Of a DNA stretch of 64,000 nucleotides, positions 2,894-19,153 are shown piece after piece. The DNA is taken from positions 1,146,001 through 1,210,000 of the forward strand of contig NZ_CP045404.1 in the NCBI RefSeq assembly GCF_009363715.1. Reading direction: 5' to 3'. This stretch comes from Roseovarius sp. THAF9 (lineage in GTDB: Bacteria > Pseudomonadota > Alphaproteobacteria > Rhodobacterales > Rhodobacteraceae). Below the pieces are notes generated by a model that was given only the letters and a program-made list of their open reading frames with translations, did not search any database and was not told where the DNA came from. The number at the start of each line of letters is the position of its first letter. The first letter of the stretch is position 1. Position numbers and translations under genes: made by a program.

Positions 2894-3142
2894 TTACTCG
2901 GCGCGGCGTTCGACCTCGTTCAGGTCGGCGTCGAGTTCGATGTCGAACTGGTTGCCGCCTTTGCAGATCACGTCGTCAAGTTCGTAGCCGCCGTCATCTT
3001 CGGCTTCGATATCGGCGGGGTCCATCTGGCATTCGATGGAGGCGAGATAGGCCTCGATCTTTTCGACCGTTTCTGCATCGACGTGGTCGTCGGCGAGAGC
3101 GGGCGAGGCGACAAGCGCCGCGATTGCGAAAATACGTTTCAT
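2894..3142 (-). CDS. Small acidic periplasmic PepSY-like protein
   Basis: An 82-residue protein with a signal peptide (MKRIFAIAALVASPALA). Its mature domain is strongly acidic, with two Cys (in IECQM and VICKG) that may pair, and the pattern GGYELDDVICKGGNQFDIELD, which resembles the beta-hairpin of PepSY/YpeB-type domains. It sits in the same-strand run between the 149-residue protein and the ABC transporter. A PepSY protein from Methylobacillus (LanPepSY) has been reported to bind lanthanides. That, the acidity and the position inside a XoxF island make metal binding a reasonable but untested idea. Confidence 0.72.
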   Translation of the reverse strand: MKRIFAIAALVASPALADDHVDAETVEKIEAYLASIECQMDPADIEAEDDGGYELDDVICKGGNQFDIELDADLNEVERRAE

Positions 3143-6980: not shown

Positions 6981-7896
6981 CGCGCTGGCGCTTTGCCTGG
7001 CCACGCCGGTGGCCGGGCAGACCGCGTTCGTCACCTGTCAGCCTGCCGATGCGTTGAGCGTGATCGACGTGGCCCGCGGGGTCGAGGTTGATCGCTGGGA
7101 CGTGGCGGGCAAGCCTGCCGGGGTCGCCGTTGGTGGCGATGCGGTCTATTCCGTCTCCCCGGATAGCAAGACCGTGCGGCGTTTCACGCTCACCGGCAGG
7201 CTTTTGACCGAAACGGTGCTGGATGGCGGGCCGACCGGCGTGGCGCTGGATGCCGCGCGCGGGCGGCTGTTCGTGTCGGACTGGTATAACGCACGGCTTT
7301 GGGTGTTGGACGCCGAAAGCCTAGAGGTCTTGCAGGAGCTTGAGACCGGGGCGGAGCCAGCGGGGATCGCGCTGTCGGAAGATGGGCGGTTTCTGGCCAG
7401 TGCCGAGAAGGATGCCGACCGGGTGTCGGTCTGGGACGCCGGGACCCTTGAGCTGCTGCATAGGGTCGGTGTGGGCGTGCGGCCCTACGGGCTTGGCTTT
7501 GCACCGGATAGGCGGCTGTTCGTGGGTAACGTGGGCAGCAATGATGTGAGCGTGGTGGATGCCGAAACTGGCAAGGTGCTGGCCACGGTGCCGGTGGGCG
7601 AACGGCCTTATGGCGTTGCCTTTGCAAGCGGGCGGGCCTTTGTGACCAACCAGTATGCGAACAGTCTGAGCGTGATCGACCTGGCCACGCTGGAGCCGGT
7701 CGAGCAGGTCAGCGTCGGGGAATATCCCGAGGGGATCGACGCCACGGCGGACGGCGCACATGTGGTCTTTGCCAACTGGTTCGAGAACACGGTGAGCGTG
7801 ATGGACGCACAAACGCTGGACGTGGTATATGACGTCGAGACATGCGACGGGCCGCGGGCCTTTGGCATATTCCTGTCGGGAGGAGGCGAGGAATGA
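6964..7896 (+). CDS. YVTN beta-propeller protein (second copy)
   Basis: A 310-residue secreted propeller (signal peptide MRRALNALALCLATPVAGQ, GTG start at 6964 inside the previous gene). Blades include LFVSDWYNARLWVLDAES, LFVGNVGSNDVSVVDAET and AFVTNQYANSLSVIDLAT. It differs clearly from the propeller at 3624-4598, so the two are paralogues with probably separate partners. This one is co-transcribed with SRPBCC and the SoxYZ-like carrier. Likely a periplasmic scaffold or partner protein; no catalytic residues are suggested. Confidence 0.85.
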   Translation: MRRALNALALCLATPVAGQTAFVTCQPADALSVIDVARGVEVDRWDVAGKPAGVAVGGDAVYSVSPDSKTVRRFTLTGRLLTETVLDGGPTGVALDAARGRLFVSDWYNARLWVLDAESLEVLQELETGAEPAGIALSEDGRFLASAEKDADRVSVWDAGTLELLHRVGVGVRPYGLGFAPDRRLFVGNVGSNDVSVVDAETGKVLATVPVGERPYGVAFASGRAFVTNQYANSLSVIDLATLEPVEQVSVGEYPEGIDATADGAHVVFANWFENTVSVMDAQTLDVVYDVETCDGPRAFGIFLSGGGEE

Positions 7897-8702
7897 TTGG
7901 AACGTCTTTGCGCGCATTGAGTGCGCTGTGCGTGATGGCAGTGCCGGCGCTGGCAGGCACTTGGGAGGATCTGAGCGCCGAGATATATGGCGAGCGGGCG
8001 CTCTTGGACGGCGCGCAGGTGATCGCCATCGACGCGCCGTACCGGACGGGCAACGACGCGCGCACGCAGCTGGCGGCGCAGGTGGTGGCGCCGGAAGGGG
8101 CCGAGATTGCCAGCGTGACGCTTGTGATCGACGAAAACCCGATGCCGGTGTCGGCTGTCTTTGACCTGGATGCGCCGTTGCCGGCGTTCTTTTTCGACGT
8201 GACGATGCGGATCAACGGGCCGACGCCGATGCATGTCGTGGCCGAGACGACCGATGGGCGGCTTTTTGTCTCCGAGGCCTTCGTCAAGACATCGGGGCAG
8301 GGGGCCTGTGCAGCGCCGCCGGGGACCGATCCGGACCTTGCGCTGGAAACGCTGGGACAGATGGAAATCGAACTGGCCGGGCGGCTGACCGGGCTGGGGC
8401 AAAGCGCGGCGGACAAGCTGGCCAATCGGCTGAACCGGATGGACGTGGACATCTCGCACCCGTCGCATTCGGGGATGCAGATGGACCAGATCACGCTGCT
8501 GTTCCTGCCCATGCGCTATGTCGAAACTGTGGAGATTGATCTTGACGGTGCGGGATATGTCGAGATGACGGGGTCGATTTCGCTGTCGGAAAACCCGCAG
8601 GTGGCCCTGTCGGTGCCGAGCCGGGCGCAGGCGGTGGACGTGACCATGACGGATACCGATGGCACCGTGACCCATGCGCACAAGAAACTGACTGGATATT
8701 GA
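7893..8702 (+). CDS. Quinoprotein dehydrogenase-associated SoxYZ-like carrier protein
   Basis: A 269-residue fusion. ATG 7893 overlaps the previous stop (ATGA) behind an AGGAGG. After a signal peptide (to about residue 22) comes a SoxY-like domain ending in GQGACAAP with the single candidate carrier Cys139, then a SoxZ-like domain (SHPSHSGMQMDQITLLF ... GSISLSENPQVALSV). In true SoxYZ the terminal GGCGG Cys carries sulfur intermediates. Here the motif is degenerate and internal, as in the fused carriers that accompany PQQ dehydrogenases. It may shuttle a covalently bound intermediate to the metallohydrolase at 17205-18236, as proposed for 'quinoprotein relay' systems. A paralogue is at 18344-19153. 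Confidence 0.85.
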   Translation: MIGTSLRALSALCVMAVPALAGTWEDLSAEIYGERALLDGAQVIAIDAPYRTGNDARTQLAAQVVAPEGAEIASVTLVIDENPMPVSAVFDLDAPLPAFFFDVTMRINGPTPMHVVAETTDGRLFVSEAFVKTSGQGACAAPPGTDPDLALETLGQMEIELAGRLTGLGQSAADKLANRLNRMDVDISHPSHSGMQMDQITLLFLPMRYVETVEIDLDGAGYVEMTGSISLSENPQVALSVPSRAQAVDVTMTDTDGTVTHAHKKLTGY

Positions 8703-8750: not shown

Positions 8751-9989
8751 TTACTCGCAGGCCGCAGCGAAGCGCGCGGTATTGTTCTCGACGCTTTCGA
8801 CCGTCAGCGTGCAGCCGTTGTCGAGTTCCACCTCGGAGCCCGACTCGGCGGACTGGGTCGAGAAGCCGTTGACGGCGAAACGCACGGTGTCGTTGGCGAT
8901 CGAGCTGACGAAGATGCGGATGTCGCCGTCGTTCAGCATCGCGGTAGAGCCGACACCAAAGGTTTCGGTGTCCTCACCGGACGCGGCGCCGCTGTCATTG
9001 GAACTGGAGCCTGAGCCACCTTCGCTGAGCTGAGCTTCAAGTGCTGCGACGCGTTCCTCAAGTGCGGCGATCTTGTCTGCGCTGGATTGCGTGCCCTCGG
9101 AGCCTTCGCTGTCGCTCTCGGAGGAGGCGGTTTGCTCTTCGGAGCCTTCGCTATCGCTCTCGGACGATGCGGCTTGCTCTTCGGAGCCTTCGCTATCGCT
9201 CTCGGAGGAGGCTGCCTGCTCTTCGGAGGCTTCGCTTTCGCTCTCGGAGGATGCGGCTTGCTCTTCGGAGGCTTCGCTTTCGCCCTCGGACGATGCGGCT
9301 TGTTCCTCGGAGCCGTCGCTGTCGCTCTCTGAGGATGCGGCTTGCTCTTCGGAGCCTTCGCTGTCGCTCTCGGAGGATGAGGCCTGCTCCTCGGAGCCTT
9401 CGCTGTCGCTCTCGGAGGATGAGGCCTGCTCCTCGGAGCCTTCGCTGTCGCTCTCGGAGGATGCGGCCTGCTCCTCGGAGCCTTCGCTTTCGCTCTCGGA
9501 GGATGCGGGTTGCTCTTCGGAGCCTTCGCTGTCGCTCTCGGAGGAGGCTGCTTGCTCGTCGGAGCCGTCGCTTTCGCTCTCGGAGGAGGCTGCCTGCTCC
9601 TCGGAGCCCTCGCTGTCGCTCTCGGAGGATGAGGCCTGCTCCTCGGAGCCTTCGCTGTCGCTCTCGGAGGATGCGGCCTGCTCCTCGGAGCCTTCGCTTT
9701 CGCTCTCGGAGGATGCGGTTTGCTCTTCGGAGCCTTCGCTGTCGCTCTCGGAGGAGGCGGCCTGCTCTTCGGAGGCTTCGCTGTCGCTCTCGGAGGATGC
9801 GGCTTGCTCTTCGGAGCCTTCGCTGTCGCTCTCGGAAGATGCGGTTTGTTCCTCGGAGGTTTCGGTGTTGGCTTGGGCGGTCTGGTCGCCAAGCGGTTCG
9901 GGTTTCGGGCGCAGGGCGGCCACCGCCAGAAGCACGGCCACGGCCGCGATCAGAACCCCGTAAATCAACTTGTCATTCAATGTTTCCAC
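8751..9989 (-). CDS. Membrane-anchored acidic repeat protein downstream of xoxFGJ
   Basis: A 412-residue protein. Residues 8-26 form one N-terminal membrane anchor. Residues 45-296 are eighteen exact-length 14-residue repeats with consensus SEEQAASSESDSEG, about five acidic residues each. Residues 304-322 form a short heptad coiled coil (DKIAALEERVAALEAQL), and the last 65 or so residues form a compact domain with two Cys (NGCTL, AAACE). It is encoded 92 bp after the CxxxCW gene on the same strand, so it probably ends the xoxFGJ transcript. I do not recognise the family. The array should be disordered and highly negative, and calcium or lanthanide buffering or a surface spacer are possible roles. 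The translation is consistent: anchor, repeats and C-terminal domain lie in one frame. Confidence 0.75.
   Translation of the reverse strand: METLNDKLIYGVLIAAVAVLLAVAALRPKPEPLGDQTAQANTETSEEQTASSESDSEGSEEQAASSESDSEASEEQAASSESDSEGSEEQTASSESESEGSEEQAASSESDSEGSEEQASSSESDSEGSEEQAASSESESDGSDEQAASSESDSEGSEEQPASSESESEGSEEQAASSESDSEGSEEQASSSESDSEGSEEQASSSESDSEGSEEQAASSESDSDGSEEQAASSEGESEASEEQAASSESESEASEEQAASSESDSEGSEEQAASSESDSEGSEEQTASSESDSEGSEGTQSSADKIAALEERVAALEAQLSEGGSGSSSNDSGAASGEDTETFGVGSTAMLNDGDIRIFVSSIANDTVRFAVNGFSTQSAESGSEVELDNGCTLTVESVENNTARFAAACE
9102..9857 (-). repeat. 18 tandem 42-bp coding repeats
   Basis: Eighteen back-to-back 42-bp units encode the Ser/Glu-rich array of the protein above. 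Variation is mostly limited to Gly/Ala, Asp/Glu and Ala/Ser/Thr/Pro at fixed columns, which suggests recent expansion by recombination with selection for acidity. Because 42 is a multiple of three, several other frames are also open through the array; I regard those as spurious. Confidence 0.95.
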
Positions 9990-10081
9990 TCCCAGGTCTT
10001 GGTGTTTTCGGTGCGCGAGTCGCTTTCAAACCATATGGGACGACCCGGCCAAACGGCAAATTTCCGGCGCGTATTCGCCTG

Positions 10082-10627
10082 TCAGGGGGTGGGGAACGGC
10101 TCAATTTCTTTCAACGGAAAATCCTGAAACGCCCACCCGTCCGTACCATCGGGAAACCAGTAGACTTGCGAATGGTTCCATTCGATCGCACGTTTTGCGG
10201 CGTTCCAGCTCATCCAGCACTCGGCCAGGCAGAAGAAAACGACCGGGCGGTCGGGGTCGCCCTCGGTCGCGTGATCAAGCCCGGCGCGGAAATAGTCGGC
10301 GGTGACGTCGGCCAGCGCGCCGTAGCCCACGTTGGGCAGCCAGAGCGCGCCGGGGATGCTGGGGCGGGGCTTGTCGCGCCAGATGGTGCCTTCGGGCAGG
10401 TTCTCGGGCTTGGGCGCGCGGGGGAGGACGTCGATGAAGGCGGCCTCGCCGGCCTGCCAGAGGGCGTGCGCCTCTTTCGCGTCGATGACGGTGCCGCCCT
10501 GAAGCGTGGCAGGCACCGGCGCGCGGTAGTGGTCCGTGCGGTAGTCGGAAGGCTCGGGGATGTCTTGGGCGGTGCCTGGCGTTGCGGCCCAGGCCGCGAG
10601 GGCGAGGGCCGCGACGAGGCGTTTCAC
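10082..10627 (-). CDS. PQQ-dependent catabolism-associated CxxxCW motif protein (rhodanese-like)
   Basis: A 181-residue periplasmic protein with GTG start at 10627, overlapping the xoxJ stop by four bases. A signal peptide (to about residue 20) is followed by a rhodanese-like fold (GGTVIDAKEAHALWQAGEAA) and the hallmark FFCLAECWMSWNAAKRA, in which two Cys are three residues apart and precede Trp. Family members are always near PQQ dehydrogenases. The Cys pair could act in thiol redox or sulfur transfer, perhaps connected with the SoxYZ-like carriers; this is inference. Confidence 0.9.
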   Translation of the reverse strand: MKRLVAALALAAWAATPGTAQDIPEPSDYRTDHYRAPVPATLQGGTVIDAKEAHALWQAGEAAFIDVLPRAPKPENLPEGTIWRDKPRPSIPGALWLPNVGYGALADVTADYFRAGLDHATEGDPDRPVVFFCLAECWMSWNAAKRAIEWNHSQVYWFPDGTDGWAFQDFPLKEIEPFPTP

Positions 10628-11493
10628 TGCGCCAGCTCCAGCATTTCATTGCCCATGTCGCTGACCAGCGGCACGCCGGCCTCGACCAGAAGCGCATTGA
10701 TTTCGTCCTGGTGACGGCGGATGAGCGAGTTGAGCTCGCGCTGCCAGACCTTTTCGCCCTGCCGCACGCCCATGGTGATGCGGAAGAAGAGGCGCGGGGG
10801 CAATTCCTCGTTGATGAGAGGGATCACCTTCATGCCGGGGTAGTCCGCCTTGACCAGCGGGCCGCCGAGCGGGCCCCAGAGGATGGCGGCGTCGGTGTCG
10901 CCGGCCTTGAGGTCGTCGAGCATGTTGATCGCCGGATTCTCGTGCCGGCGGTCGACAACAAGGTTGTAGGGCTTGGCCTTGCCGATCAGCCCGTGCCGCG
11001 CAAGATGCGCCGAAGGCGGCGTTCCGGCGATGATGCCGATGCGGGTCCCCTTCAGAGCGTCGTCTGTGAGGGTCTCGACCGAGGCGAGCGGGCTGTCCTG
11101 CGGGACGATAAGCGTATAGACCGAGCTGAAGTAGTGGTTGGTGTTAAGCACCAGTTCATGGCCCTGGGCGTAGCCCATCACGACGTCGCAGCGCTTGACC
11201 TTCAGCGTGTTGCGGATGAACCCCGTGGCCTGCGGATACCAGGTGTATTGCACCGGCAGGTCCAGCTTGGACGCGATGAGTTCGGCCAGCTTGTTTTCGT
11301 ACCCCGTTCCCTCTTTGGTGGACATGGGGTAGTTGGCCGGATCGGCGCAGACGCGCAGCGCGTTCTGCGACACAAGATCGGAGGTCTGGGCCGTTGCCGG
11401 CCCGGACATCAGCAGCGCCGAAAAGCAAAGCGCCGCCGACCCGGTGAGGCGGGCGGCGGCGCGCAATGCTGTGGATTTAGCCCATGCAGGCAT
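10624..11493 (-). CDS. xoxJ: XoxJ, quinoprotein dehydrogenase-associated periplasmic binding protein
   Basis: A 289-residue protein of the periplasmic binding-protein type 2 fold. Family hallmarks are ALRVCADPANYPMSTKEGTGYENKL near the mature N-terminus and DVVMGYAQGHELVLNTNHYF. I choose ATG 11493 because AAGAGG lies six bases upstream; ATG 11499 is an alternative, and the gene overlaps the end of the cytochrome gene by 17 bp. XoxJ is encoded with XoxF and XoxG and is thought to help activate or mature the lanthanide dehydrogenase rather than feed an ABC transporter. The order xoxF-xoxG-xoxJ here is canonical. Confidence 0.9.
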   Translation of the reverse strand: MPAWAKSTALRAAARLTGSAALCFSALLMSGPATAQTSDLVSQNALRVCADPANYPMSTKEGTGYENKLAELIASKLDLPVQYTWYPQATGFIRNTLKVKRCDVVMGYAQGHELVLNTNHYFSSVYTLIVPQDSPLASVETLTDDALKGTRIGIIAGTPPSAHLARHGLIGKAKPYNLVVDRRHENPAINMLDDLKAGDTDAAILWGPLGGPLVKADYPGMKVIPLINEELPPRLFFRITMGVRQGEKVWQRELNSLIRRHQDEINALLVEAGVPLVSDMGNEMLELAQ

Positions 11494-12004
11494 CTTCATC
11501 CTCTTGGATCGATTCTGACTTGGCTTGTTTCGAGCCGGGGCGTCCGCGCGGGACGGCCTCCATGCCGCGGGCCTTGAGATAGACATAGATGTCGTCGAGA
11601 TAGCACATCACGTTCGGGTTGTCGCCGAAGTGGGGCATGACGGAGTTGCCGTTTCCACGGCCGTTCACGACAACATCGTAGAAGTCGTAATAGCCCATGT
11701 GGACGGCGGAATTCTTGACTTTGGGGGCGTAGGACGAGCCTTCGCCATCGGGGCCGTGGCAGACGTGGCATTCGGCGTGATAGCGGCGAAAGCCCGAGAA
11801 GGTGAGCCAGTCGACGGTGCCGTCTTCGCCCACGTTGTAGGTGGGAACGTCGTCCTCGTTGAAATACCGCCCGTCTTCTTCGTAGGCGACGGTCTCGTCG
11901 TGGTTTGCAGGATCGACCGGCTGATCGCTCCAGTTCTGAGCCGAGGCTGTGATCGGCAGCGCGACCAGGGCCGAGGCGAGTGTCAAGCGGAGTCCGGTGC
12001 TCAT
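11477..12004 (-). CDS. cycB: Cytochrome c553i / XoxG-type methanol-metabolism cytochrome c
   Basis: A 175-residue secreted c-type cytochrome with signal peptide to about residue 22. One haem site, C79-HV-C82-H83 (CHVCH), and two further Cys at 134 and 173 give the four-Cys pattern of the methanol-related cytochromes (c553i in Paracoccus). The acidic stretches before and after the haem domain also fit. It lies between xoxF and xoxJ and should accept electrons from XoxF. The region 12005-12110 upstream contains a strong hairpin, so its level may be set below that of xoxF. Confidence 0.9.
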   Translation of the reverse strand: MSTGLRLTLASALVALPITASAQNWSDQPVDPANHDETVAYEEDGRYFNEDDVPTYNVGEDGTVDWLTFSGFRRYHAECHVCHGPDGEGSSYAPKVKNSAVHMGYYDFYDVVVNGRGNGNSVMPHFGDNPNVMCYLDDIYVYLKARGMEAVPRGRPGSKQAKSESIQEDEDACMG

Positions 12005-12110: not shown

Positions 12111-13910
12111 TTAGTCCGGCAGAGCGAACACGGTCAGTTGGCCACCCAGCGCGGTGTAGTCGCTGAGAGCGGCGTAGCCACCCACAGCGCCCAGACCGTC
12201 ATTGGGGTTGGTCAGACCGGCCGCGAGACCGATGCCGGCCCAGCCACCGACGCCCGAGAGGACGGCGACATACTGTTTGCCTTCACGCTCGTAGGTCATC
12301 ACGTTGCCGATGATGCCCGAGGGTGTGCGGAACTTGTAGAGTTCCTCACCCGTGGCGGTGTCGACGGCCTTGATATAGCCTTCGAGCGTGCCGTAGAAGG
12401 TGATGCCACCCGCGGTCGTCAGAGCACCGGACCAGACCGAGAACTGCTCGGGGTTGGACCACTTGATTTCGCCGTTGATGTTATCCCAGGCGATGAAGTT
12501 GCCCATGCCGCCATGGCTGTCCGGGGCAGGGTACATCGACAGGGTCGCGCCCACATAAGGCTGACCTGCGGTGTAGCTGACGCGGAACGGCTCGTAGTCC
12601 ATGCAGACGTGGTTGGTCGGAACCAGGAACAGCTGGGTTTCCGGGTCATAGGCCGCGGGCTGTTGGTCCTTGGTGCCAAGCGCCGCAGGGCAGATGCCTG
12701 TGGAGTTGACGTCTTCGCCGTTCTGCTCGGTGGAGTATTGCGCCACCACTTCAGGACGACCGTAGGTGTCGGACTCGGGGTCCATGTCGACGCCGGAGGT
12801 CCAGTTCACGACCGGGTCGTATTTTTCGGCGACCAGAAGTTCACCCGACACACGGTCCATCGTGTAGGCCAGACCGTTACGGTCGAAGTGGGTCAGAAGC
12901 TTGCGCTCCTCGCCGTCAATTTCCTGCTCCGTGAGGATCATTTCGTTGACGCCGTCGTAATCCCACTCGTCATGCGGGGTCATCTGGTAGAACCACTTGG
13001 CCTCGCCGGTGTCGATGTCGCGGGCCATGACGGTCATGGACCAGCGGTTGTCGCCGGGACGCTGCGAGGGGTTCCACGTCGACGGGTTGCCGGTGCCGTA
13101 GTACATCAGGTTCTCGTCGAGATCCGCCGAGTACCAGCCCCAGGTGGTGCCGCCGCCGATTTGCCACTGGTCGCCTTCCCAGGTGTTGGTGCCGGAGTTT
13201 TCACCGACAGGCTCACCCAGATGGGTCGTGTTCTCGGGGTCCACGAGGATGTCCTCGTCGGGGCCCATCGAATAGGCGCGCCACGCTTGGCTGCCGTCCG
13301 ACATGTTGTAGGCGGTCACGTGACCACGCACGCCGAACTCGCCGCCCGAAATGCCGACGATGACCTTGTCCTTGACCGGAAGAACGGTCGCGGTGTTGGT
13401 TTCGCCGATGGACGGGTCGCCGTTGACGACTTCCCATTCGACCGAACCGTCGTCAGCGTTCAGAGCCACGACCTTGGTGTCGGCCTGGTGCAGGAAGATC
13501 TTGCCGTCGGCATAGGCCACACCGCGGTTCACGGTGTCACAGCACATCACCGGAATGACGTCCGGATCCTGCTTGGGCTCGTATTTCCACTTGATCTTGC
13601 CTTCGTCGGCGAGGTCGAGCGCGTAGACGATGTTCGGGAAGGGCGTGTGGACATACATGGTGTCGCCCACGACGAGCGGCGAGCCTTCGTGCCCGCGCAG
13701 AACGCCGGTCGAGAAGGTCCATGCGACCTGCAGGTCGCCCACGTTTTCCTTGTTGATCTGATCCAGCTTGGAATGGCGCTGGTTCTTGTAGTCGCCCGTC
13801 TGGATCGCCCATTGGCTGGGGTCGTCCATCTGCGTGACAAGGTCGTCATTGGCGACGGCCATGCCAGCGCAGAGCGCCAGACCCGAAGTTAAAAGCATAA
13901 GCTTCTTCAT
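12111..13910 (-). CDS. xoxF: XoxF-type lanthanide-dependent PQQ methanol dehydrogenase
   Basis: A 599-residue periplasmic quinoprotein (signal peptide [20 protein letters not shown]) that oxidises methanol to formaldehyde or formate. It has the vicinal disulfide C123-C124 (VMCCDTV), metal-ligand candidates E191 (GGEFG) and N275 (GTGNPSTWN), catalytic D317 and the extra D319 in [10 protein letters not shown]. The last Asp is replaced by Ala in calcium MxaF and marks lanthanide use. Tryptophan-docking blades ([14 protein letters not shown], GTLEGYIKA) form the eight-bladed propeller. It has its own upstream region, since a terminator follows the cytochrome c2 gene. Length and motifs fit XoxF5, the common alphaproteobacterial clade. 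No mxaFI is present in this window. Confidence 0.97.
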
Positions 13911-17204: not shown

Positions 17205-18236
17205 CTATTCCCATTCAAGTTCGGTGAAGGCGACAGTGGCGTTCCGCGGGTTGTAGGCCTCGAAAAGCTGCCACTTGTCTGCTTCGCTTTCCGCGATTGT
17301 GGTGACGGCCTCGCCCAGACGGGTGCCGCGAGCGATGGCGGCGCGGGTGTCGTCGCGCAGCGTTTCCAGATAGCGGTGCTGATCCTCGGCGCCTTCAGGC
17401 CAGTCCAGCACCGGGCCGCCGTGGCCGGGGACGATACGGGTGACGTTCCACTTTTTCAGCTGGCCCAGAACGTCGAGCCAGCCTAGCACGCTGCCGTCGA
17501 GGGCGGGGGTGTGCATGTGAAAAATGAGGTCGCCTGTGAAGAGCGTGCCGGTCGCTTCGTCCAGCACCGTGAGATCGTTGCCGGTATGGGCGGTAGGCCA
17601 TGCGTGCAGGGTGAGAATGCGGTTGCCGAGGTCGATCTGCATTGGCGCGTCGGGCGACACCGTGATGTCCGTGTCCGGCGCGGTCGAGCCTATGAAGGCG
17701 GGACCGATCAGGCGCGTCAGGCTTTCCGCGTAATTGGCCTGCCTGTCGGCCAGCGCGCGGGGCAGGGCGGCGTGGGAGGCAACCTGTGCCCCGGTGGTGC
17801 TGAAGGCATCCGTGCCCAGCACATGGTCGGGGTGCATGTGGGTCAGGATCACGTGGCTGACGGGCTTGTCGGTCTCAAGGCGGATCGCGCGCCAGAGTGC
17901 CTCGCCGATCCAGCGGGCCGAGCCGGTGTCGATCACGGCGACGCTGTCTTGGCCGACGACAAAGCCGAGATTCGCGACGTCACCGCGGTTGTCGGTGTCG
18001 GGTTCCTCGACCCGGCCCAGATGGGCGAAAACGCCCGGTGCGATCTCGGTCGTGTCGAGCGCCGGGCCAACGGGGGCACAGCGCGGGTCATCGTATGTCT
18101 TTGAAAGTTCGGGCAATTGCGCCTCGCACTCGGCCTGTGTTGGAGCCTCGTAATTCGCCAGAAGCATGTCGCGGCAGGCCGGCTCGCCTGCCTCAGAGGC
18201 AAGCGCAATGCAGGCTGTGACGACGACCTCGAACAT
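17205..18236 (-). CDS. Quinoprotein relay system zinc metallohydrolase (type 2, SoxH-like)
   Basis: A 343-residue metallo-beta-lactamase-fold protein. The metal motif is H133-M-H135-P-D137-H138, followed by a metal His in HTGNDLTV, the Asp of FTGDLIFH and His in VPGHGGPV. A weakly hydrophobic N-terminus with two Cys (GEPACRD, DPRCAPV) precedes the domain, as in the SoxH-like hydrolases that travel with SoxYZ-like carriers and PQQ dehydrogenases. The start at ATG 18236 is chosen by family length; an ATG 45 bp upstream is possible. It is divergent from the SoxYZ-like gene at 18344, its probable substrate carrier. Confidence 0.85.
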   Translation of the reverse strand: MFEVVVTACIALASEAGEPACRDMLLANYEAPTQAECEAQLPELSKTYDDPRCAPVGPALDTTEIAPGVFAHLGRVEEPDTDNRGDVANLGFVVGQDSVAVIDTGSARWIGEALWRAIRLETDKPVSHVILTHMHPDHVLGTDAFSTTGAQVASHAALPRALADRQANYAESLTRLIGPAFIGSTAPDTDITVSPDAPMQIDLGNRILTLHAWPTAHTGNDLTVLDEATGTLFTGDLIFHMHTPALDGSVLGWLDVLGQLKKWNVTRIVPGHGGPVLDWPEGAEDQHRYLETLRDDTRAAIARGTRLGEAVTTIAESEADKWQLFEAYNPRNATVAFTELEWE

Positions 18237-18343
18237 GGCCGGATCTTGCCACACGAGATTGTGAGGTCCATGCCCCATTTCGTATAAGTGGATTTTGCCG
18301 CCGTTTCGTGGCATAACACTTGCGCACTGCGGGAGGAGACCGT

Positions 18344-19153
18344 ATGAGACATGCAATCGCATCCGTTTTGGCGCTGGGTCTTGCGGCGTCACCTGGTTGG
18401 ACTGAGGAGGCGGTCAAGAACCCCTTGACCGAAAGCCCGACCTGGCAGGATCTTCGCTATGACGTGCTGGGCGAGGCCACGCTGGAGGAGGCGGAGGGTC
18501 CGCTGAGCGTTGAGGCGCCGTACCGTGCCCATGACGCGGCGACGGTGCCGCTGCACCTGAAACAGACCGATCCGGACGCGCAGATCAGGTCGGCCACGGT
18601 GGTGATTGACGAAAATCCTGCGCCAGTTGCCGGAGAGTTCACGTTCGGGCACGGTATGGGGCAACTCGATTTCGAAATGCGCGTGCGAGTGAACCAGTAT
18701 TCCAATGTGCGGGTTATTACCGAGACCGAGGACGGCCTTTACATGACCGGGCGGTTCGTGAAAGCGTCGGGCGGCTGTTCTGCCCCGGCCTCGAAAGACC
18801 CGGAGGTGGCGCTGGCAGGCATGGGCCGTATGAAGCTGCGCAGCTTTGGCGAGACGGCGGCGGTATCCACGCCGCGGCGCGAGGCGCAGATCATGATCCG
18901 GCATCCGAATTATTCCGGGCTTCAGCGGGACCAGATTACGCAGCTGTTCATCCCGGCGCATTTCATCGACACGATCGAGGTGCTGCAGGGCGACGAAATG
19001 CTGTTCTCGATGACCGGGGGGATTTCGATCTCGGAAAACCCGTCCTTCCGGTTCTTCTATGATGACAACGGCTCGGCAGACCTGACTGTGAAGGCCACGG
19101 ATACCGAGGGTAACGTGTTCGAAAATACCTTGCCGAAATCGCTGGACGGCTGA
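18344..19153 (+). CDS. SoxYZ-like carrier protein, quinoprotein-associated (second copy)
   Basis: A 269-residue paralogue of 7893-8702 with the same layout: signal peptide, SoxY-like domain ending ASGGCSAP (Cys145), then SoxZ-like domain (IRHPNYSGLQRDQITQLF, GGISISENPSF). Strong GGGAGGAG lies upstream of ATG 18344. Sharing of the carrier Cys context but little else suggests old duplication and separate partners, this copy with the divergent metallohydrolase. An intrinsic terminator follows. Confidence 0.86.
   Translation: MRHAIASVLALGLAASPGWTEEAVKNPLTESPTWQDLRYDVLGEATLEEAEGPLSVEAPYRAHDAATVPLHLKQTDPDAQIRSATVVIDENPAPVAGEFTFGHGMGQLDFEMRVRVNQYSNVRVITETEDGLYMTGRFVKASGGCSAPASKDPEVALAGMGRMKLRSFGETAAVSTPRREAQIMIRHPNYSGLQRDQITQLFIPAHFIDTIEVLQGDEMLFSMTGGISISENPSFRFFYDDNGSADLTVKATDTEGNVFENTLPKSLDG

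Follow-up and report, generated by a model that had tools for sequence, protein, structure and literature searches.

We describe a membrane-tethered, probably periplasmic protein encoded beside a methanol oxidation cluster in a 64,000-nucleotide stretch of Roseovarius sp. THAF9 (contig NZ_CP045404.1, positions 1,146,001 to 1,210,000), hereafter the window, in whose own coordinates positions are given. The protein carries an acidic repeat array and ends in a C-terminal domain (CTD) that represents a family not described before, all-beta by prediction, which in this analysis turned up only in Rhodobacteraceae and relatives. This family is likely linked to the XoxF system. The window's protein and its four orthologues from the same genus (G400, G404, G438 and G458) occupy an identical slot (5/5) between a SoxYZ gene and the gene for a CxxxCW rhodanese-like protein (hereafter CxxxCW), and CxxxCW is found in 17 of the 18 genomes of the window's family that have the CTD versus 56 of all 394 (hypergeometric p 6e-15), which supports a tie to XoxF proposed in a first-pass annotation of this DNA. 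The interpretation that we favor, and hold with about as much doubt as confidence, is that the protein is a membrane-tethered periplasmic accessory of methanol oxidation by XoxF, a pyrroloquinoline quinone (PQQ) enzyme, with the array as a charged stalk.

Protein architecture

Repeat finding, reading out of the translation and a structure model together re-found the layout first annotated, in which an N-terminal anchor is followed by eighteen 14-residue repeats with 90 acidic residues, then by a coiled coil and finally by an end domain with two cysteines:

9912..9968, minus strand: predicted single N-terminal membrane anchor (LIYGVLIAAVAVLLAVAAL), by hydropathy only (2.84 over 19 residues)
9102..9857, minus strand: acidic array, 18 x 14 residues, with 90 D/E and zero K/R/H
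9021..9092, minus strand: predicted heptad coiled-coil helix (residues 5-28 when the last 117 residues were modeled with AlphaFold2; heptads assigned by eye)
8754..8966, minus strand: CTD, a predicted all-beta end domain of about 71 residues; invariant cysteines at codons 8811-8813 and 8757-8759

Tandem Repeats Finder reported a period of 42 and 18.1 copies with 90% matches over 9097-9858, and the 14-residue consensus of the 18 units is SEEQAASSESDSEG. The net charge of the 409-residue protein is -106. In a survey of 252 sequences (1.8 Mb), which contain 2540 distinct stop-to-stop frames with at least 200 codons, a 200-residue stretch with net acidity of 0.25 or more occurred only in the window's protein and its four orthologues; since no other frame was comparably acidic, acidity this strong is not a matter of chance. 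After the helix, the AlphaFold2 model has an 8-strand beta domain (pLDDT about 95), for which the predicted fold gave no significant PDB match.

The CTD family

Two cysteines are invariant in the CTD alignments, and the window's CTD (the last 71 residues) fits the family profile. Among the 394 genomes of the window's family (393 genera), a single-sequence search at E <= 0.01 gave 20, from which G086, G165, G322 and G335 were dropped after their reading frames were examined; a profile search added G083 and G262, for a total of 18. The same type of profile search found no CTD in 105 other genomes of the class, which include at least one from the window's family. Within the genus (84 genomes), a single-sequence search gave 9 matches with E below 1e-7, and a pattern-limited scan of named genomes (genome_contigs) gave 26 loci, all under names that belong to Rhodobacterales. 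The 44 CTD proteins that were tabulated consist of an N-terminal hydrophobic stretch (best window taken, hydropathy 1.36-2.84), a linker and one to three CTDs; this stretch, found in the window's protein too, agrees with the earlier description of a tethered protein that is probably periplasmic.

No Pfam or NCBIfam model fits the CTD family beyond weak touches, consistent with the first-pass statement that the protein is not among the described lanthanide proteins. Passages of PMC5934484, PMC11996626 and PMC12482762 do not describe the array protein, and a literature search, judged largely from titles, gave no paper recognizable as being about it.

Position and co-occurrence

The CTD gene is in the xox cluster in 7 of the 18 family genomes (G000, G004, G008, G035, G239, G263 and G338). 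The first six have xoxF within 10 kb on the same contig (about 8.5 kb away in G004 and 4 kb in G008); in G338 the CTD gene is among PQQ accessory genes, behind DUF3280, and xoxF is on another contig. The place within the cluster varies: between CxxxCW and SoxYZ in G035, before a SoxYZ gene in G239, and, in G263 (L050:9771-10502), behind a beta-propeller gene, with xoxF on the other strand. The 20-kb locus of G263 has no SoxYZ1 match, and the CTD gene may occupy that gene's place.

Twenty further xox clusters (13 from genomes with the CTD elsewhere, 7 from genomes lacking it) were inspected and none contained the CTD gene (0/20); the gap from CxxxCW to the next cluster gene was 9-223 bp in 15 of the 16 where both were visible. 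In G475, a relative within the genus whose CTD gene is elsewhere, the slot between CxxxCW and SoxYZ holds a histidinol-phosphatase-like gene (L123:6476-7267; under the model cut-off).

CxxxCW is present in all 11 genomes with an unlinked CTD gene versus 50/387 (p 6e-11), in 9/9 CTD genomes of the genus versus 24/84 (p 4e-6), and in 4/4 of the unlinked ones there versus 19/79 (p 0.003). In the sole CTD genome without it, G008, the assembly is 82% complete, and xoxF is cut off and lies some 4 kb from the CTD gene. XoxF itself was found in 18 of 19 CTD genomes checked.

To view these counts on a phylogeny, a sample of 120 genomes was taken, made up of every genome that has CTD or CxxxCW (57) and 63 others drawn at random. 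An RpoB tree was built from 110 of them; six had no RpoB match, and G027, G319, G344 and G381 were excluded (partial, split or stop). The CTD distribution needs 14 changes on this tree, so it is not explained by a single clade.

The acidic array

Among the proteins found, the array is present only in the window's protein, its four orthologues and a metagenomic relative (P0001, about 8 units). Linker net acidity is 0.29-0.31 in array proteins versus 0.035-0.18 in the other 39, linked or unlinked; the other six cluster-linked CTD proteins have no array and values of 0.07-0.18. The array is thus a clade-specific, local addition to the CTD family.

Its length has drifted, yet the acidic character of four positions in the unit has persisted. 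The five orthologues have 18, 21, 23, 26 and 27 units, with the reading frame kept in all. Among the 102 units of regular spacing in these proteins, positions 2, 3, 9 and 13 carry an acidic residue in 99, 99, 100 and 100, with 24, 23, 18 and 4 synonymous changes; because units are copied from one another and are not independent, this is an argument from ratios and carries no statistical test. A fifth acidic position (11) is kept in 76/102. The 18-fold array is a natural example of a fast-drifting repeat that retains its charge.

Interpretation and alternatives

As a methanol oxidation accessory, the protein would be anchored in the inner membrane by its N-terminal helix, and the coiled coil would probably give an oligomer. 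The beta domain, presumably disulfide-bonded, would be the working part, contacting a periplasmic component of the quinoprotein system. Expansion of the 14-residue acidic unit between anchor and coiled coil would, in this clade, have produced a long, disordered, negative stalk that keeps the end domain off the membrane; the array more likely serves as a spacer than as a store of metal.

Several observations weigh against this interpretation. The CTD gene is away from the cluster in 11 of the 18 family genomes and at 25 of the 26 genome_contigs loci, such that the outcome named in the first-pass annotation as refuting its proposal, homologues mainly away from xoxF, was observed by position, though not by genome content. 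In the 11 unlinked genomes CxxxCW is on other contigs, and out to about 10 kb from the CTD gene, or to the contig end where that came first, no cluster gene was found (the contexts of G083, G106 and G262 had none within 10 kb). Many unlinked genes fall in two other conserved neighborhoods (12 and 11 loci), and the cluster-linked copies do not form one clade (p-AU 0.04). The hypergeometric p values ignore kinship; tree-independent pairs in which CxxxCW accompanies the CTD (4.5 versus 0.2, median p 0.125) point the same way, weakly, in a test whose power was lowered because the sample was enriched for CxxxCW. The control gene soxB is itself mildly enriched (15/18 CTD genomes versus 244/394, p 0.04). 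G320 has the CTD with only a distant CxxxCW (38%) and no XoxF at E 1e-150. Conversely, 39 of the 56 CxxxCW genomes lack the CTD, and the CTD protein is therefore not needed. The G106 copy (L253:9650-10120), outside the 44-protein table, is a 157-codon frame without an anchor, and may be a fragment. Finally, a polyanion is expected to be repelled by XoxF (net charge -50) and XoxG.

As for the two alternative homes of the CTD gene, one is represented by L058:7483-9336, where an M3 oligoendopeptidase was named, and the other by L065:8040-9428, where an allantoate amidohydrolase-like gene was named with preA.

The strongest alternative is that this is a general envelope protein unrelated to methanol oxidation, whose link to the cluster reflects ancestry, genome size, lifestyle or chance capture. 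The unlinked majority, with its two conserved sites, the weak tree-corrected signal and the soxB enrichment all favor it. It does not account well for the presence of CxxxCW in every unlinked genome, nor for linkage in seven family genomes from separate genera and at several places in the cluster, and we consider it possible but doubtful.

The first-pass annotation had instead suggested a buffer, in which lanthanide or calcium ions would be kept at the membrane by the array (or by the CTD) and passed on to XoxF. The 90 carboxylates without a single basic residue, the acidity kept at four positions per unit and the location beside a lanthanide-type XoxF speak for it, and there is a slight further hint in Ca_tandemer (NCBIfam NF033510), a calcium-stabilized adhesin repeat, which touches the CTDs of 2 of 48 sequences (best E 4e-4), both from relatives; the window's CTD is not matched at E <= 0.1. 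The proposal fared poorly, since the array is confined to this clade, with ordinary linkers in the other six cluster-linked members, and a Pfam scan to E 1 found no metal-site family anywhere in the protein. Acidity at the fifth position is also loosely kept, and on general chemistry Mg2+ and Ca2+ at levels like those of sea water would fill a simple polycarboxylate, rather than trace lanthanide. We regard a metal buffer as unlikely. A more elaborate form, slightly less credible to us, is a new dedicated component in which the protein is an anchored oligomer, with an end domain that binds to XoxF or to partners of XoxF and a polyacidic stalk that, in this clade, also gathers lanthanide or calcium where XoxF loads; if true, the protein would be a tethered device for handing over metal, with no counterpart among the described lanthanide proteins.

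GspC and PilP consist of a membrane attachment, a linker and a small beta domain, a layout that the array protein shares; periplasmic docking of that type, with a beta homology-region domain bridging inner- and outer-membrane complexes, seems very improbable here. We give almost no credence to the array being replication-slippage debris without a selected role: copy number does range from about 8 to 27 among relatives, but the frame is intact in all five orthologues and four positions are acidic in 97-98% of units while third bases vary (again by ratio only).

The accessory interpretation matters in that the loading, holding and wiring of XoxF in the periplasm of these bacteria are poorly known, and a family that has no Pfam or NCBIfam model and is almost confined to xox-cluster genomes is a concrete accessory candidate that can be deleted.

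Gene start and leader

The minus-strand open reading frame spans 8751-9989 if a GTG initiates; starting at the TTG at 9980 gives 409 residues beginning MNDKLIYG. The TTG is probably the start, because GGAGTGG lies 5 nt upstream, and both TTG and this site are kept in 5/5 orthologues, because one orthologue has the GTG in a different frame, and because P0001 begins MNDK. This is the sole correction to the earlier description of 8751..9989, whose architecture and neighbors stand.

8751..9980, minus strand: array gene, probable TTG start, 409 residues; alternative GTG at 9989
9986..9992, minus strand: Shine-Dalgarno-like GGAGTGG, kept in 5/5 orthologues
10030..10059, minus strand: promoter-like TTGCCG-N18-TATGGT, read by eye and below the scan threshold

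The promoter-like element is within a 101-nt leader that is kept before the array gene in the five orthologues. A scan found no terminator-like site between CxxxCW and the array gene. The element may give the array gene its own transcript.

The surrounding cluster

The xoxFGJ and CxxxCW genes were placed correctly by the first-pass annotation, just upstream on the same strand, according to their NCBIfam matches:

7842..8702, plus strand: SoxYZ-like carrier, convergent, closing the slot (TIGR04557)
10082..10627, minus strand: CxxxCW rhodanese-like protein (TIGR03865)
10624..11586, minus strand: XoxJ (TIGR03871)
11477..12004, minus strand: XoxG-type cytochrome c (TIGR03874)
12111..13910, minus strand: XoxF methanol dehydrogenase, a PQQ alcohol dehydrogenase (TIGR03075; PDB 6oc5)

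In the PDB, the window's XoxF is best matched by 6oc5, a lanthanide-dependent XoxF, and the two align at the D-x-D pair that marks lanthanide-type enzymes; the window thus has a lanthanide-type XoxF together with xoxG and xoxJ. The idea that the array docks to XoxF or XoxG by charge was dropped, since wherever these two were measured, both proved strongly acidic. Of the proteins measured in the window's cluster, XoxJ alone is basic and the rest are acidic. The pI of XoxJ ranges from 5.0 to 9.3 over 27 clusters, among which the array clade (7.2-8.4) is unremarkable.

The cluster is flanked, at 7842-8702, 17205-18392 and 18320-19153, by genes for two SoxYZ fusion proteins and for a SoxH-like hydrolase of the "quinoprotein relay system" model TIGR04559. 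A small, secreted-looking protein of 82 residues (2894-3142) in the PQQ gene neighborhood has no NCBIfam match at E 1e-10.

Comparison with known systems

Passages of PMC12482762 list LanM, LanPepSY, LanA and LutH as the principal parts known so far, and those of PMC11996626 add landiscernin. Like lanmodulin, LanPepSY and landiscernin, as these passages present them (PMC11996626, PMC12482762), the array protein is periplasmic (in its case by prediction) and from lanthanide-using methylotrophs. Lanmodulin (calmodulin-like) and LanPepSY (two PepSY domains) appear there as small binders, whereas the array protein is an anchored repeat; EF-hand families had no match to the whole protein or its C-terminal 117 residues, nor did PepSY to the protein, at E <= 1, and the genome's EF-hand matches all fall outside the window.

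A further comparison is with the quinoprotein-associated families TIGR03863, TIGR03865, TIGR03866, TIGR04557 and TIGR04559, poorly understood accessories of PQQ dehydrogenases in the same cluster; these have NCBIfam models, unlike the CTD family.

The array is touched by the YSIRK lipase model (E 0.0012) and by the ClfA model (E 0.022), each scoring far below its cut-off (12.4 bits versus 1150 for the ClfA-type model, mainly over the array). Low-complexity regions of staphylococcal surface proteins act as stalks, and these acidic, Ser-rich spacers resemble the array. The array protein differs in having a 14-residue unit, an N-terminal anchor, a Gram-negative cell and no adhesin or lipase domain, and the resemblance is one of composition, not kinship.
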